This document shows, in pieces, positions 3,842 to 12,485 of a stretch of 64,000 nt of DNA. The notes under the pieces are model-generated. The model had not been told where the DNA came from, searched no databases, and saw nothing but the letters and a program-made list of their open reading frames with translations. Numbering within the stretch: the first letter of the stretch is position 1; each line of letters begins with the position of its first letter. The stretch comes from Nitrospira sp. Lineage in GTDB: Bacteria > Nitrospirota > Nitrospiria > Nitrospirales > Nitrospiraceae. Location of the stretch: contig JARFXQ010000009.1 of NCBI GenBank assembly GCA_029194725.1, forward strand, positions 1-64,000. Direction: 5' to 3'. A program made the position numbers and the translations under genes.

Positions 3842-5161
3842 CTATGACGACAAGACTCCCGCGATACAGCCGGTCAGCAGTGTCGTCAAGAATGAGGTCC
3901 AGAGCGCACGGAGTCCCAGGAGCGAGACATCCTTTGCCCGACGGGGCACCAATGCGGAGATGCCGCCGACAAAGATCCCCATGCTCGCGACATGAACGAA
4001 CCCGCACAGCGCGTAGGTCATCGCAGTGAGGGATCGTGGAGAGAGCGGCGGAGACGATGTCGCTTGCAATGCAGCCAACTTGAAATAGGCCGCGACTTCC
4101 GTCTCGACGAACCGCGAACCCAGTAAGTCTGCGCCGATCTGCCATTCCTCCGGATGGAGACCGAGAAGAATCGTGAAGGGCCAGGTCAGCCAGGCCAGAA
4201 CACGGATGACCGAGAGCGGGGCTCCTCCGAGCAAGGGGAGCTGCGCCAGCGCCAGATCCACCAGGGCTTCCAAACCGAGAAACACGATCAGCAGCGCCGC
4301 AATGCCGGCGGCCATTGTCATGCCCTGCCCCGCCCCGTCGATCAAGGCGACGATAAGGTTGGAAGGCGGCGTCATCGCATCTCTCTCTGATGAACCTGAC
4401 GTCTCACACTGGCCGTTCCCAGACGGCACGCCCCCGAGGGTCACAGGCCGCCCATCTTCAGGAAGCGACAGCTTACTGACGAGCACCGCACAGGGGATCG
4501 AAATCACCGAGGCAGAAATCAGATGCCCCGCAATCTGGGGCACCACATGCTGGAGCGCTGAGACATAGATGCCCATGACGGTGCTAGCCACCGTCGCCAT
4601 CATGCAGGTGAGCACCAGCAACAATTCGGAGCTGGTCATGGCAGCCAGGTAAGGACGGACGATCAAGCCTGCCTCGATCCCGACGAAGATATTGGCGGCG
4701 CCGGAGAGAGATTCGGCGCCCGATAAGCCCATCGTTCGATAGAAGAGCCTGGCAAACAGCCCCACGATCGCTTGCATGATGCCCGTGTAGTAGAACCCTG
4801 CCATCATGGCGGCAAAGAACACGACGGCCGGGAGCACTTGCGCGGCCAAGATAAAACCCACCGACACCGTCCCATCCGGCAGTGTCTGGCCAGGGCCGAG
4901 CGCCAGCGGTCCCAAGAGAAAGAGCGTGCCCTTTTGGGAGGCGGTCAACATGGCCACAACCGCATCGTTGATCATCCCCCACAACCAACGCGCCCCCGGT
5001 AACCAAAAGGACACAATACCGAGACCCCACGCCAATGCCGCACTGCCGCCGATAGTCTTCCAGTTCGGTTGAGTACGTCGTCCCGTTACCCAGGCCAGCG
5101 AGGCTATCGTAAAGAATCCGACAAACGCGAGCAGGCGATAGGGCCACTCGTCCACAATCAT
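3842..5161 (-). CDS. nupC: Concentrative nucleoside transporter (NupC/CNT family)
   Basis: Inner-membrane cation-coupled nucleoside uptake protein. Hydrophobic segments run through the whole 439-residue chain. The family core is clear: GAESLSGAANIFVG followed by EAGLIVRPYL and then a TSSELLLVL-TCMMATVAST stretch, which are the CNT substrate and ion binding hairpins. A soluble loop near residues 245-265 is Gly/Ser rich. The ribosome site GGGAGG lies very close to ATG 5161 and better spaced to GTG 5155, so translation may begin two codons later. It is divergent from the CARF gene, sharing a 122-nt intergenic region. The family is firm; the exact nucleoside specificity is not readable. Confidence 0.9.
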   Translation of the reverse strand: MIVDEWPYRLLAFVGFFTIASLAWVTGRRTQPNWKTIGGSAALAWGLGIVSFWLPGARWLWGMINDAVVAMLTASQKGTLFLLGPLALGPGQTLPDGTVSVGFILAAQVLPAVVFFAAMMAGFYYTGIMQAIVGLFARLFYRTMGLSGAESLSGAANIFVGIEAGLIVRPYLAAMTSSELLLVLTCMMATVASTVMGIYVSALQHVVPQIAGHLISASVISIPCAVLVSKLSLPEDGRPVTLGGVPSGNGQCETSGSSERDAMTPPSNLIVALIDGAGQGMTMAAGIAALLIVFLGLEALVDLALAQLPLLGGAPLSVIRVLAWLTWPFTILLGLHPEEWQIGADLLGSRFVETEVAAYFKLAALQATSSPPLSPRSLTAMTYALCGFVHVASMGIFVGGISALVPRRAKDVSLLGLRALWTSFLTTLLTGCIAGVLSS

Positions 5162-5283: not shown

Positions 5284-6540
5284 ATGGCACAAGACCAACC
5301 CATCAAGGCGCTTGTGATTGCATTGGTCGATGACCCGGCGTCGGCGATCTATTCGATCAACAGGCTCAACCCAGATACCTTATGTTTCGTGTTGCCCGAA
5401 GGACGCAAGACTTTGGTGGAGTCGGACGTACAGCCGAAGATCCAGCAGATGCCGAGGCGGTGGGATTGGATCGTGATAGCCGACCCTACGGAGCTCCTAT
5501 CCACTTATCAGACCATTGCGCGGTCTCTACCGGATCTCTTACGGACGTGGGAGATACAGCCGGGCGAGCTCGTCGTGGATCTGGGCGGAGCGACATCGTC
5601 GATGGCCGGCGCGCTCGCCCTGGTGGCGCTCCCGTGGACTTCTCGGGTGGTCGAGCTGGCTCCTGCGCGCGAAGGTCTGGAGGGTGATCGTATCGAGTTG
5701 GGCTCCAAGGCGTTGGTCTGGACCCAGACGAATCCCTGGGATGAGCAAGCAACGGTGTCTCGTCGAGAAGGATGTGAGTTGTTCAACCGAGGCTTGTTTC
5801 ACGCCGCCGCCAAAATGTTTCACGATATAGAATTACTGGTGAGTGGTGGACAGAAGCCGTTGTACCGCGCATTCAAGGATTTAGCTGAGGGCTATGACTT
5901 GTGGGAACGTTTTCATTACCGTCAGGCCTGGGACAAATTGAAAACCGCGACCAAGGCGCTTGAGATGGCCGCGCTGTGGGGCGGCCCCCCTGGCTTGAAG
6001 GCGGTCGTGCCCCCGATCAAGGCTAATGCCGGCTTTCTCGAAAAGCTCGTGCTTGATCCCGCTGAAGCCAAAGAATTCGTGCCGCTGGATTTGTTGGGGC
6101 ATGTCGACAGAAGGCTCCGCACAGGACGTGATCCGGAAGGGGCCATGACGGCGCTTGTTCGCGCGCTGGAGGCGTTCGCCCAGGTCCGGCTCTACAAGAC
6201 GCACAAGATCAAAAGTTGGGATGTGTCGCTGAGACAGCTTCCGGAAGCGCTTCAAGAGACCTGCCGCACCTGCTATCTGGAAGATATCGACGGCAAGTAC
6301 AAGTTGCCGCTCCAAGCGCAGTTTCGTGTGCTGGCTGGGTTGGGCGATCAGCTGGGCCAAGCTTTCCTCAGAGAATGGCAGAAGATGAAACCGTTGTTGG
6401 ACGCGGCGAATCATGCGGTGTTGGGGCACGGTTTTGATCCCATCAAATCAGAGCGCGTGCAGCAATTGTATGATGTGGTCGTCAAGCTGGCGGGTGTCAA
6501 TGAGACCTCGCTGCCGAAATTTCCGGTGCTTAGTCTCTAA
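5284..6540 (+). CDS. CARF-domain protein, Cas02710 (TIGR02710)-like
   Basis: Resembles the Cas02710 group of CRISPR-associated Rossmann-fold (CARF) proteins, which sense cyclic oligoadenylate in type III systems. Residues 7-38 have the usual first strand and helix ending in a Pxxx-FVLPEG strand. Residues 98-112 (VVDLGGATSSMAGAL) match the family's D-x-GGTK-xMSAG signature, but Ser replaces the usual Lys. The second half has the family's WERFHYRQAWDKL and EGAMTALVRALEAFAQ helices, and an R-x4-H (R302 to H307) that might be a HEPN-type nuclease motif. No cas genes or repeat array lie in the window. Alternatively it is a housekeeping relative of CARF proteins. The family call is moderate, the function open. 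Confidence 0.65.
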   Translation: MAQDQPIKALVIALVDDPASAIYSINRLNPDTLCFVLPEGRKTLVESDVQPKIQQMPRRWDWIVIADPTELLSTYQTIARSLPDLLRTWEIQPGELVVDLGGATSSMAGALALVALPWTSRVVELAPAREGLEGDRIELGSKALVWTQTNPWDEQATVSRREGCELFNRGLFHAAAKMFHDIELLVSGGQKPLYRAFKDLAEGYDLWERFHYRQAWDKLKTATKALEMAALWGGPPGLKAVVPPIKANAGFLEKLVLDPAEAKEFVPLDLLGHVDRRLRTGRDPEGAMTALVRALEAFAQVRLYKTHKIKSWDVSLRQLPEALQETCRTCYLEDIDGKYKLPLQAQFRVLAGLGDQLGQAFLREWQKMKPLLDAANHAVLGHGFDPIKSERVQQLYDVVVKLAGVNETSLPKFPVLSL

Positions 6541-6627: not shown

Positions 6628-7041
6628 ATGGAGATTAGGATCTACTACGAAGACACCGATTGTGGTGGGGTGGTCTACTACGCCAATTATCTGAAGTACT
6701 TTGAGCGGGCCCGTACCGAATACCTTGAAGTGCGTGGATATTCGGTGGCTGCGTTGATGGAGCAGGGCACCATCTTCGTGGTCGTGCATGCCGAAGTGGA
6801 CTATTGTTCGCCCGGTCGGTATGGAGAAACGCTGGTGGTCGAAACGAACGTCGGCGACGCGACGAGGGCTGCTTTGACATTTTCCCATATCGTGCGCGAA
6901 AAAGTGAGCGGCCGGGTCGTAGTGAAAGGAGCGGCCCGTCTCGCGGCCACGGATGGCAACGGAAAAGTCAAACGTCTGGACAGGGTCATGGTCGCTACGC
7001 TCCAAGCAGCAGCCTCCTCTTCTGAACTGCCTCGAGTCTAG
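6628..7041 (+). CDS. ybgC: YbgC/FadM family acyl-CoA thioesterase
   Basis: Hot-dog fold thioesterase that hydrolyses short acyl-CoA esters in the cytoplasm, often linked to the Tol-Pal envelope system. The diagnostic N-terminus IYYEDTDCGGVVYYANYLKYFERAR holds the catalytic Asp, and the length of 137 residues from ATG 6628 is normal. Upstream in-frame residues from TTG 6562 do not resemble the family, so I start at ATG 6628, although no good ribosome site precedes it. It follows the CARF gene by 87 nt on the same strand. No tol genes are nearby in this window. Confidence 0.88.
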   Translation: MEIRIYYEDTDCGGVVYYANYLKYFERARTEYLEVRGYSVAALMEQGTIFVVVHAEVDYCSPGRYGETLVVETNVGDATRAALTFSHIVREKVSGRVVVKGAARLAATDGNGKVKRLDRVMVATLQAAASSSELPRV

Positions 7042-9039: not shown

Positions 9040-10266
9040 ATGAAGCATCCTCTATTGGTGGTGAGCCTAGCGACGTTCCTCTCGGGCGTTGTATCTCAGG
9101 CCTGGTGCGGCGATGGGATGCTTCTGGATACACGAGTTTCGCCTTTGGCTATTGGATCTTCGACCCTGCAGACGGTCGATCCAACTTTCGCTCAAGCCAA
9201 CGTCGTCCGACCCATCATCACATCACATGTCCAGCACCCCTCCGTTGCAACCTTTCGCTTGCGTGATCTGACTCCGGAGACGACGCGTCCACGGATCGAA
9301 CAGCTGCTGGCGACAACGACATGGTTCAGTGGGAAGTTGGAGACCGAGGCGGAGGTCGCACACAGTTCGACTGAAATGAGTTGGCCGGTGGCGTCGACCA
9401 TGATCTCGACACGGCCCGATGCAGCGGCACGCATGTTCAGGATTAGGCTGACCGGCTCAGAGGGAAGTCTTCGATATGGAGTAACATTTCGTCATGCAGG
9501 ACAAGGGTACCTCCTGTCCCCTGACCGAGCCAGTCGCGAAATTTGGAGCGAGTGGAGAACAGGATGGATGACGTTCCGGAATGCCCTTGGCCAAACATGG
9601 AACAACGTCGAAGGAGAAACGACGCGGTCTCGATTGGAGCAGACGTATGGGCTGATTGGTCTGTATCTTAGCAAGCCTCTATGGCCTGAACTCAGCGTGA
9701 CCTATTCAAAAAACTCCCTGAATAGCCTGTCCGAACCGATAGGAGTGGCTCCGCAGCGATCCTCAAACCACACGATTGAAGGTGCCTTGACTCTCCAGCG
9801 GCCCGGCTGGGACATCAGAGTCGCGTCGAGTTACATCCTGACGAGCGATCTGCTCCGCGGCGACGCCGACAGCAACATCAGGTCGCAAACGCTGTCGGCG
9901 ATTCTTCGACCGATCAGCCAACTGACCATCACACCGGTCTTGGCCTATCGACAAGAGCTTCAACCCAGGTCCGGTGTACGCCTCGATAGCCCAACCGCCT
10001 CTCTTGCGCTCAGTTACCAGCAGAGTCCCCAGCTCCTTTTCAGCACCGTGGGCAACTATTCGAGTTCCCATTCGTCCGATGGATTGATCCGCAACGAAAA
10101 CCTGAAGTGGAGAGGCGCCTTGGATTGGTCGTTGCACTCCTCAGCCAGGTGGGTGACCAAGATAGGATTTGAAGCCGGTTACAATCGCGTGACCAATCGA
10201 GTCGCCCGTTCCGCCGACACCGAGGATATCTCCGGGCTTATCCGGTTAGGAATCGTGGCTCGTTGA
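9040..10266 (+). CDS. Probable outer-membrane beta-barrel protein
   Basis: An N-terminal signal peptide (about residues 1-23, ending QAWC/G) is followed by a chain rich in alternating polar/hydrophobic strands with aromatic ends (YGLIGLYLSKPLWPELSVTYS, LSAILRPISQLTITPVLAYRQ). It finishes in a strand-like IRLGIVAR, as in outer-membrane barrels. I recognise no named family. The start ATG 9040 is chosen because it opens the signal peptide; the ribosome site is weak. It is convergent with the OmpA-repeat gene. The barrel is inferred from strand pattern only. Confidence 0.65.
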   Translation: MKHPLLVVSLATFLSGVVSQAWCGDGMLLDTRVSPLAIGSSTLQTVDPTFAQANVVRPIITSHVQHPSVATFRLRDLTPETTRPRIEQLLATTTWFSGKLETEAEVAHSSTEMSWPVASTMISTRPDAAARMFRIRLTGSEGSLRYGVTFRHAGQGYLLSPDRASREIWSEWRTGWMTFRNALGQTWNNVEGETTRSRLEQTYGLIGLYLSKPLWPELSVTYSKNSLNSLSEPIGVAPQRSSNHTIEGALTLQRPGWDIRVASSYILTSDLLRGDADSNIRSQTLSAILRPISQLTITPVLAYRQELQPRSGVRLDSPTASLALSYQQSPQLLFSTVGNYSSSHSSDGLIRNENLKWRGALDWSLHSSARWVTKIGFEAGYNRVTNRVARSADTEDISGLIRLGIVAR

Positions 10267-10361: not shown

Positions 10362-12485
10362 TCAGTGATGGGTCACTGTCTGAGTGGAGAATCCCCGGAG
10401 TTTCTTGCCGACTTGCGTCTTCGCATCGTCTGAATCGGCGCCGTGTTCCGACCATCGAGTAATCACGATCTCCATCCGTCGGTTCTTACTCCGACCCTTT
10501 TCAGTATCATTAGCCGCGAGAGGTCTAGTGTCCGCGTACCCAACTGCTGTGACTCGATCGGCCTCAAGTCCTCCATTGACCAGCGCATGACTCGTACGTT
10601 CAGCCCGTACACGAGAGAGTTCGATGTTATCCCGAAAGCCCTTCCGCGGGTCGTTTCTGAGAGGCATGTTGTCGGTATGCCCAGCGACCTCTATGCTCTG
10701 GTAACGGAAACCGTGCAGGACGGTTCCGACGCGCTCGAGCAACGAGGCGCCTCCCAGCGTGACTGTGGCGTCACCCGGGGTGAATAGTTCACCGGTCGCA
10801 AACGCAAGGGTTAATTTGTTGCCTCGCTGCCTCAAGGTCACATTGCCCTTTTTGAGTTCGGGCTGTAACAAATTTGCAAGGCTATCACTCATTTTACCGA
10901 GATCGCTACTTAATGAGGCTTCTGCATCCTCTGTAACTAGAGGGCTGGGCGGCAGCAGGTTGTTCGCCGAGAGGTTCTCCTCGACCGATTGTGGAGCAAG
11001 GGAATTCTTGTCGAGAGGACTCCCATCTTGAGCGGGAGTCGCCTCGTCCAGTTTGGAGGACTTGCGCTCGATGTCCGCCAACAATTGCTTCGTACGTGCG
11101 AGTTCCGCCTCTTTCGCCATAAGTTGAGGATTGAGGGCTGCCAGCTTTTGCGTGGCTTGCTTGAGGTCGTCTTTGACCTGAGCCAATTCCTGCTCTTTTC
11201 CCGCCATCTGTTGTTCGACTTCAGCGGCGCGGCGTTTGGCTTGCGCCAATTCCTGCTCTTTCCCCGCCGTCTGTTGTTCAGCTTCGGCGGCACGGCGTTT
11301 GGCTTGCGCCGGTTCCTGGTCTTTTCTCCCCGCCGCCTGTAGTTCGACTTCGGCGACGCGACGTTTGGCTTGGGCCAGTTCCTGCTCCTTTCCCGCCATC
11401 TGTTGTTCAACTTCGGTTGCACGACGTTTGACCTGTGCCAGTTCCTGGTCTTTCCCTGACATCTGTTGGTCGACTTCTGCGGCGCGGCGTTTCGCTTGGG
11501 CCAGTTCCTGGTCTTTTCCCGCCATCTGTTGTTCGACTTCGGTTGCGCGGCGTTTGGTCTGTGCTAGTTCCTGCTCTTTCCCCGCCATCTGTTGTTCGGC
11601 TTCGGTGGCACGACGTTTGGTCTGTGCTAGTTCCTGCTCTTTCCCTGCCATCTGTTGTTCGACTTCTGCGGCGCGGCGTTTCGCTTGGGCCAGTTCCTGG
11701 TCTTTTCCCGTCATCTGTTGGTCGACTTCTGCGGCGCGGCGTTTGGCCTGTGCCGGTTCCTGCTCTTTCCCTGTCATCTGTTGTTCGGCTTCGGTGGCAC
11801 GACGTTTGGTCTGTGCTAGTTCCTGCTCTTTCCCCGCCATCTGTTGTTCAGCTTCGCTTGCGCGGCGTTTCGCTTGGGCCAGTTCCTGGTCTTTCCTTGC
11901 CGTCTGTTGTTCAGCTTCGGTTGCGCGGCGTTTCGCTTGTGTCAGTTCCTGGTCTTTTCCCGCCATCTGTTGTTCTGCTTCAGCCAGACGCCGCTTGCTC
12001 TGGTCCAGCTCTCGCTCCTTCGCCGCCGCCTGTTGTTCTGCCTCGGCAGCGCGCCGTTTGGCCTGACTCAATTCCTGCCCTTTCCCCGCCGCCATTTGTT
12101 GTTCGACTTCAGCGATACGGCGCTTGGCTTGGTTTAGCTCCTCGGTTTGTGCTGCAAGATCTTCGCGGAACTTCTTGGAATTCTCGTGGACGCTGGCTCT
12201 CAAGGCTGCGATCTCGTTTTCCTTGGTATGGAGCTGCAGAATGAGCTCGCCGATCCGTCGCTTTGCATTCTCCAGATTACCGGCAGCAAGTTGGCGCTCG
12301 AGCTCATCGATTCTTTGGTTGGCCTCCTGGAGATGGTTTCTCATCACGCTCAACTCTTCTTGTGATGACCGCCCGTTTGAATCTAAGTTCTTAGCGATCG
12401 ACTGAACGGCCGCGATCGAAACCGGCGCTGCTTCACATAGCACAGCGATGATTACAAGAGCGAAGGCGGATAACTTGATGATCAT
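10362..12485 (-). CDS. OmpA-family protein with a long repeat coiled coil
   Basis: A 707-residue exported protein. A signal peptide occupies residues 1-25. A helical region (40-130) leads into about fourteen to fifteen near-identical 21-residue repeats (131-436; consensus core GKxQELAQxKRRAxE), then more helix to about 480, a Ser/Pro linker, and a C-terminal OmpA-like peptidoglycan-binding domain (about 555-680). That domain contains the signature IEVAGHTDNMPL followed by LSxxRAER and GRSKNRRMEI. Since 21 residues equal three heptads, the repeats should make one continuous coiled coil tens of nanometres long. Likely role: an envelope spacer or tether anchored on peptidoglycan. A ribosome site GGTGAG precedes ATG 12485. 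The repeat number probably varies between strains. Confidence 0.85.
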   Translation of the reverse strand: MIIKLSAFALVIIAVLCEAAPVSIAAVQSIAKNLDSNGRSSQEELSVMRNHLQEANQRIDELERQLAAGNLENAKRRIGELILQLHTKENEIAALRASVHENSKKFREDLAAQTEELNQAKRRIAEVEQQMAAGKGQELSQAKRRAAEAEQQAAAKERELDQSKRRLAEAEQQMAGKDQELTQAKRRATEAEQQTARKDQELAQAKRRASEAEQQMAGKEQELAQTKRRATEAEQQMTGKEQEPAQAKRRAAEVDQQMTGKDQELAQAKRRAAEVEQQMAGKEQELAQTKRRATEAEQQMAGKEQELAQTKRRATEVEQQMAGKDQELAQAKRRAAEVDQQMSGKDQELAQVKRRATEVEQQMAGKEQELAQAKRRVAEVELQAAGRKDQEPAQAKRRAAEAEQQTAGKEQELAQAKRRAAEVEQQMAGKEQELAQVKDDLKQATQKLAALNPQLMAKEAELARTKQLLADIERKSSKLDEATPAQDGSPLDKNSLAPQSVEENLSANNLLPPSPLVTEDAEASLSSDLGKMSDSLANLLQPELKKGNVTLRQRGNKLTLAFATGELFTPGDATVTLGGASLLERVGTVLHGFRYQSIEVAGHTDNMPLRNDPRKGFRDNIELSRVRAERTSHALVNGGLEADRVTAVGYADTRPLAANDTEKGRSKNRRMEIVITRWSEHGADSDDAKTQVGKKLRGFSTQTVTHH
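11178..12095 (-). repeat. Tandem 63-bp coding repeat array
   Basis: About fourteen to fifteen copies of a 63-bp unit inside the OmpA-family gene, each encoding 21 residues. Two copies carry an extra codon, giving 22. Units differ at only a few codons, which suggests recent expansion by slippage or unequal recombination. The repeat keeps long open frames in antisense frames of the same stretch, which are shadows. Confidence 0.92.

Follow-up and report, generated by a model that had tools for sequence, protein, structure and literature searches.

Among the CARF-HEPN proteins of type III CRISPR signalling, TtCsm6, the Csm6 of Thermus thermophilus (PDB 5fsh, 8jbb, 8jbc, 8jh1), is the best PDB match, by fold and by profile, to the protein described here. 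In TtCsm6 the HEPN motif consists of Arg415, Asn416 and His422, close to Glu332; replacing these residues with alanine abolishes RNase activity, the R415A mutant being RNase-dead (PMC4748810, PMC10897365). Binding of cA4 by TtCsm6 needs Lys137 of the CARF motif, and the K137A mutant does not bind it (PMC10897365). Proteins fitting the same family model over their whole length (TIGR02710/Cas02710) are found in type III loci of Thermus, Thermomicrobium, Synechocystis and other Nitrospirota, and standalone CARF-nuclease genes have been noted earlier (PMC3710099). A divergent CARF domain outside cyclic oligoadenylate (cOA) signalling is also known from RtcR, the regulator of an RNA repair operon, which senses tRNA fragments with a 2',3'-cyclic phosphate (PMC7790460). 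In RtcR, where the ligand is known, the CARF domain is fused to AAA+ and DNA-binding domains and not to 6H-HEPN. CARF-HEPN proteins are generally taken for defence enzymes wherever they occur, and annotation and defence-finding tools label the gene described below 'CRISPR-associated'. Its cluster is already catalogued by PADLOC as a CARF_HEPN protein (PDLC01812), with the name as the only description and no remark found on core-gene status or motif loss. No published account of a Nitrospira CARF/Csm6 protein was found in the literature searched, though an earlier mention elsewhere is conceivable.

A Csm6-type protein with altered CARF and HEPN sites

The window, a stretch of 64,000 nucleotides from a Nitrospira sp. 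contig, possessed an intact ORF of 418 codons on the forward strand (5284-6540), starting with the ATG at 5284 and encoding the N-terminus MAxDxPxKAL common to its aligned orthologs. The gene and its domains were as follows.

5284..6540, + strand: core CARF-6H-HEPN protein of 418 aa, a degenerate member of the Csm6 family (Cas02710/TIGR02710), from profiles and fold
5284..5730, + strand: CARF (Rossmann-like) domain, residues 1-149, from the secondary structure of the model and Foldseek matches to CARF proteins; the loosest domain by median dN/dS (0.15)
5731..6081, + strand: Csm6 6H helical domain, residues 150-266, from PF22205, with strong conservation of SGGxKPLY, YRxAWDKLK and WGGPPG
6082..6492, + strand: HEPN domain, residues 267-403, from PF09670, the model and Foldseek

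The initial annotation had called the product a Cas02710-like CARF protein, and both family and fold confirmed it as a CARF-6H-HEPN relative of Csm6. Residues 268-403 matched the Csm6 HEPN family PF09670 (E 1.2e-19, 71 bits against a cut-off of 27) and residues 159-228 the Csm6 6H family PF22205 (E 7e-11), while NCBIfam TIGR02710 scored 120.7 bits against a cut-off of 83.9. PDLC01812 ('CARF1--CARF_HEPN') spanned residues 1-418 of 418 at 793 bits, a score high enough to make it almost certain that the model derives from this Nitrospirales clade itself. The AlphaFold2 monomer model (62 orthologs in the alignment, mean pLDDT 87) placed a Rossmann-like domain at the N-terminus followed by helices, so that the CARF fold on which the earlier identification depended was indeed predicted. 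Searched against the PDB with Foldseek, its eight top matches were all TtCsm6 structures (E 1e-13 to 1e-11), followed by EiCsm6 of E. italicus, StCsm6' of S. thermophilus and other CARF proteins. Whole-chain TM-scores against these matches were modest (about 0.4-0.6), as expected because domain angles differ. A PDB search with the single sequence found nothing, whereas the structure and profile searches did match. Descent and the CARF-6H-HEPN order, together with the family profile, place the protein within Csm6/Cas02710 (TIGR02710), at about 20% identity to TtCsm6.

The TtCsm6 sites were transferred to the window protein (A375, N376, H382, E296 and S105) by a residue-level reading of the printed profile alignment, and residues were counted over a core ortholog set of 97 unique Nitrospirales sequences. 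Three short segments matter.

5578..5598, + strand: CARF loop D99-L-G-G-A-T-S105, in the place of (D/N)-x-(S/T)-x3-(R/K), by profile alignment
6406..6429, + strand: degenerate HEPN motif A375-N-H-A-V-L-G-H382, replacing R-N-x5-H, by profile and ortholog alignment
6187..6204, + strand: R302-L-Y-K-T-H307, not conserved (45/97) and not the catalytic motif

The earlier remark that the usual Lys of GGTK is Ser was correct: the window protein carries Ser at 105, the position of TtCsm6 K137, and across the clade this position was Pro (70), Ala (18) or Ser (7) in most sequences and Lys or Arg in 0/97, so that the CARF signature of a functional Csm6, (D/N)-x-(S/T)-x3-(R/K), was broken throughout. At position 375, the equivalent of Arg415, Ala occupied 93 of 97 sequences and Arg none, which likewise removes the HEPN signature R-x4-6-H of a functional Csm6. 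In contrast, the equivalents of Glu332 and His422 were mostly retained (Glu296 in 95/97, His382 in 90/97), both being HEPN active-site positions. The loss is particular to this clade: 15 relatives outside it, four of them second copies in Nitrospirales genomes, kept the HEPN Arg and His in 15/15 and the CARF Lys in 14/15. The suggestion that R302-x4-H307 could be a nuclease motif did not hold and was ruled out by conservation and alignment, since the pair is complete in only 45/97 orthologs and belongs to the helix preceding the true motif (375-382).

By analogy with the TtCsm6 mutants, usual-type cA4 binding and RNase activity would both be absent, and a nuclease function appears unlikely because the HEPN motif arginine is lost in every ortholog. 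His382 and Glu296 nevertheless leave room, as far as sequence can tell, for a residual or altered activity. One version of this would be an RNase still at work in the HEPN domain, in which another residue stands in for Arg375 and the activating ligand is not cOA but, for example, RNA ends. It would agree with the retention of Arg293 beside His382 and Glu296 in the core clade, with a well-conserved HEPN motif loop (mean entropy 0.49 bits) and with the precedent of RtcR, whose divergent CARF has a non-cyclic ligand (PMC7790460). We nevertheless judge it unlikely, because Arg is lost in 97/97 and an Arg-to-Ala change is enough to kill TtCsm6, because His382 is missing from 6 of the 15 sequences of families f2 and f3 and Asn376 is variable, and because the core orthologs revealed no newly invariant basic residue at the HEPN motif itself. 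An Arg two residues past 375, at position 377, occurred in only 4 of the 97.

Distribution and selection in Nitrospirales

We surveyed 396 genomes of the phylum and found the gene in roughly 134 of the 144 Nitrospirales genomes sampled, as counted from the listed matches, some of which are contig-end fragments. By group, it was present in 53/54 genomes of the same genus, 54/56 of the rest of the window's family (f1), 26/28 of f2, 1/3 of f3 and 0/3 of f4; one genome (G325) held an intact-motif copy only. It is not a binning artefact, because Nitrospira moscoviensis and N. defluvii, both with complete genomes, carry it. Leaving aside fragments and distant intact-motif copies, the gene was single-copy in nearly all genomes, one exception being G369 with two matches scoring almost equally. 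Identity fell with kinship, from 59-88% at named Nitrospira/Nitrospirae loci to about 48-58% in f2, and the core clade was monophyletic with support of 100/100 in a maximum-likelihood tree. The description of the protein as 'solitary' therefore stands as far as its position outside a CRISPR locus is concerned, but the gene is no orphan: it is conserved across the order as a core gene with a conserved neighbour. A mobile origin was also considered and rejected: the CARF-HEPN protein had no phage match, its plasmid relatives were distant, and the five of these that were opened adjoin cas genes.

Median dN/dS was 0.10 over 219 pairs (CARF 0.15, 6H 0.07, HEPN 0.08), and 69 positions remained conserved at 97% or more when the f21 outgroup was added. 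Twenty-three positions, among them W60-D61-W62, P192, K310, W312 and Q346, were fixed (>=95%) in the core clade and unlike those of the compared relatives. Taken together, the clade-specific fixed positions and the pattern of selection suggest a new constraint and not decay. That the gene is a decaying relic without function, as the loss of both motifs might lead one to think, is barely conceivable given the low dN/dS, the conserved positions, and ORFs that stay full-length in two or more families.

Relation to CRISPR loci and cyclic-oligonucleotide synthases

The initial annotation had placed the gene outside any CRISPR locus, and this was borne out. No CRISPR array was seen within the window, and family searches of its genome (78% complete) found no Cas10, Cas1, mCpol or SMODS CD-NTase. 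The sole close direct-repeat family in the window was a coding repeat of 63 nt at 11172-12119; it forms 15 in-frame copies of a 21-aa unit in the coiled-coil part of a 707-aa protein (10362-12485, - strand), the copies being 63-87% identical to a reference copy, and the number of units may vary between strains.

Across 147 Nitrospirales genomes, the Cas10 palm (PF22335) was matched in 13 (10 above cut-off), mCpol in two and SMODS CD-NTase in 15, and pairing of the core protein with another cOA maker was rejected because each of these is too rare. No cas genes were seen adjoining the core gene in the neighbourhoods compared, and no genetic link to a type III locus or another cOA synthase emerged from the order-wide counts or from the window's own 78%-complete genome. 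In contrast, 17 of 19 comparison genomes had a Cas10 match (16 above cut-off); these genomes were picked mainly for a diverged or intact-motif relative, and motifs were checked directly in 15 relatives and not in all 19. Five plasmid relatives (from Rubrobacter, Thermomicrobium, two Thermus and Synechocystis) were likewise annotated beside cas genes. The TIGR02710/Cas02710 proteins of type III systems stand beside cas genes or share a genome with Cas10, and they keep the HEPN Arg and His, and in all but one the GGTK Lys, whereas the core clade lacks the Arg and Lys.

Two readings would keep the protein within type III immunity. The first is that it is an ordinary cOA-activated effector located away from its CRISPR locus, which would account for its architecture and its fit to the family models, and canonical copies do occur in some Nitrospirales genomes. 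It is very improbable, since most genomes bearing the gene are without cOA synthases, both key residues are lost, cas neighbours were not seen at the loci, and three checked genomes with type III systems hold a separate intact-motif copy. The second is that a dominant-negative subunit or sponge damps type III signalling, as a partner of cOA or of canonical Csm6. The loss of catalysis with retention of the fold, and the presence of both copies in some genomes, would suit such a role, but most core-gene genomes have no Cas10 or canonical copy, so that it cannot explain the near-universal retention; the cA4 lysine is also lost, and at about 26-29% identity core and canonical copies are too distant to expect heterodimers. 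This too is highly unlikely.

Some of the individual matches deserve mention. An intact-motif Csm6 copy lay in a Nitrospira-genus MAG (L137, G263:C2; 95% complete) in which Cas10 was not detected. The two mCpol matches were L114 (G167:C77) and L115 (G379:C94); the latter coincides in part, and in reading frame, with a Cas10-palm match, which leaves the G167 match (75 bits, at a contig end) as the only one that looks like a genuine minimal CRISPR polymerase.

Domestication and gene neighbourhood

We consider it probable that the domestication of a Csm6 preceded the split of the main Nitrospirales families, that the protein ceased to sense cOA and to act as an RNase, and that it was retained in a binding or regulatory role. 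Its ancestor would have been a Csm6-type CARF-HEPN effector of type III CRISPR signalling that settled in the chromosome as a core gene ahead of the divergence of f1, f2 and part of f3. The sequences show that the architecture and predicted fold were kept while two residues were lost, the lysine with which CARF holds the phosphate of cA4 and the arginine on which HEPN depends to cleave RNA; they also show strong purifying selection since then, tighter on 6H-HEPN than on CARF. The product may form a dimer like that of Csm6, with no cA4 binding of the usual kind and no RNA cutting. Its conserved 6H and HEPN surfaces, whose invariant residues include S187-Y194, R213-K224 and K310-D313, might make it a scaffold for binding or regulation, with a remodelled CARF pocket possibly gated by another ligand. 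The earlier proposal of a CARF protein recruited to a new signal or to another defence system is thus supported in its first half, recruitment to something new being the best reading, but nothing was found that ties the gene to a defence system.

A clue to the setting is the gene that follows.

6628..7041, + strand: YbgC/FadM-type acyl-CoA thioesterase, downstream on the same strand and conserved across the order

YbgC was recognised downstream by motif at 70 of 84 f1 loci, some of which are cut short, and at 11 of 15 f2/f3 loci. The gap was at most 20 bp in 10 of the 11 f2/f3 cases and in 15 of the 70 f1 cases; a single operon is not assured in f1 because the gap there is often 60-500 bp. Co-location with YbgC does not prove a common function. 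Because the acyl-CoA thioesterase gene is usually adjacent, the likeliest setting would be housekeeping, in acyl or envelope metabolism, and not immunity, though this is itself rather doubtful. Somewhat better placed, if still tentative, is the wider proposal that a one-time domestication in Nitrospirales gave rise to a near-universal non-defence scaffold or sensor, with both sites lost, tied to acyl or envelope metabolism via the thioesterase.

A whole order, nitrite-oxidising Nitrospira included, retains a CARF-HEPN core gene with both functional sites gone. If confirmed, this would clearly exemplify the conversion of a CRISPR signalling effector into a housekeeping protein, and the gene should drop out of defence-gene counts in Nitrospirales genomes. 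Canonical Csm6, the intact f21 sister family and the core pseudoenzyme would form a natural series for asking what the Csm6 scaffold does without RNA cutting.

Upstream, a divergent pair encoding a GmhA-type phosphoheptose isomerase and a GSU2086-family protein was near in about three quarters of 38 compared loci. In the window, a NupC-type nucleoside transporter (3842-5161, - strand) replaces the gmhA/GSU2086-family pair of most relatives. At the N. defluvii locus L061, an extra ORF of ~129 aa (9278-9667; MKRISLGPGVRMEKIRNFRDLEIWK...) lies between the core CARF-HEPN gene and ybgC and resembles, by eye, four-helix-bundle intervening-sequence proteins; other loci show similar gaps of 400-560 bp between the two genes.
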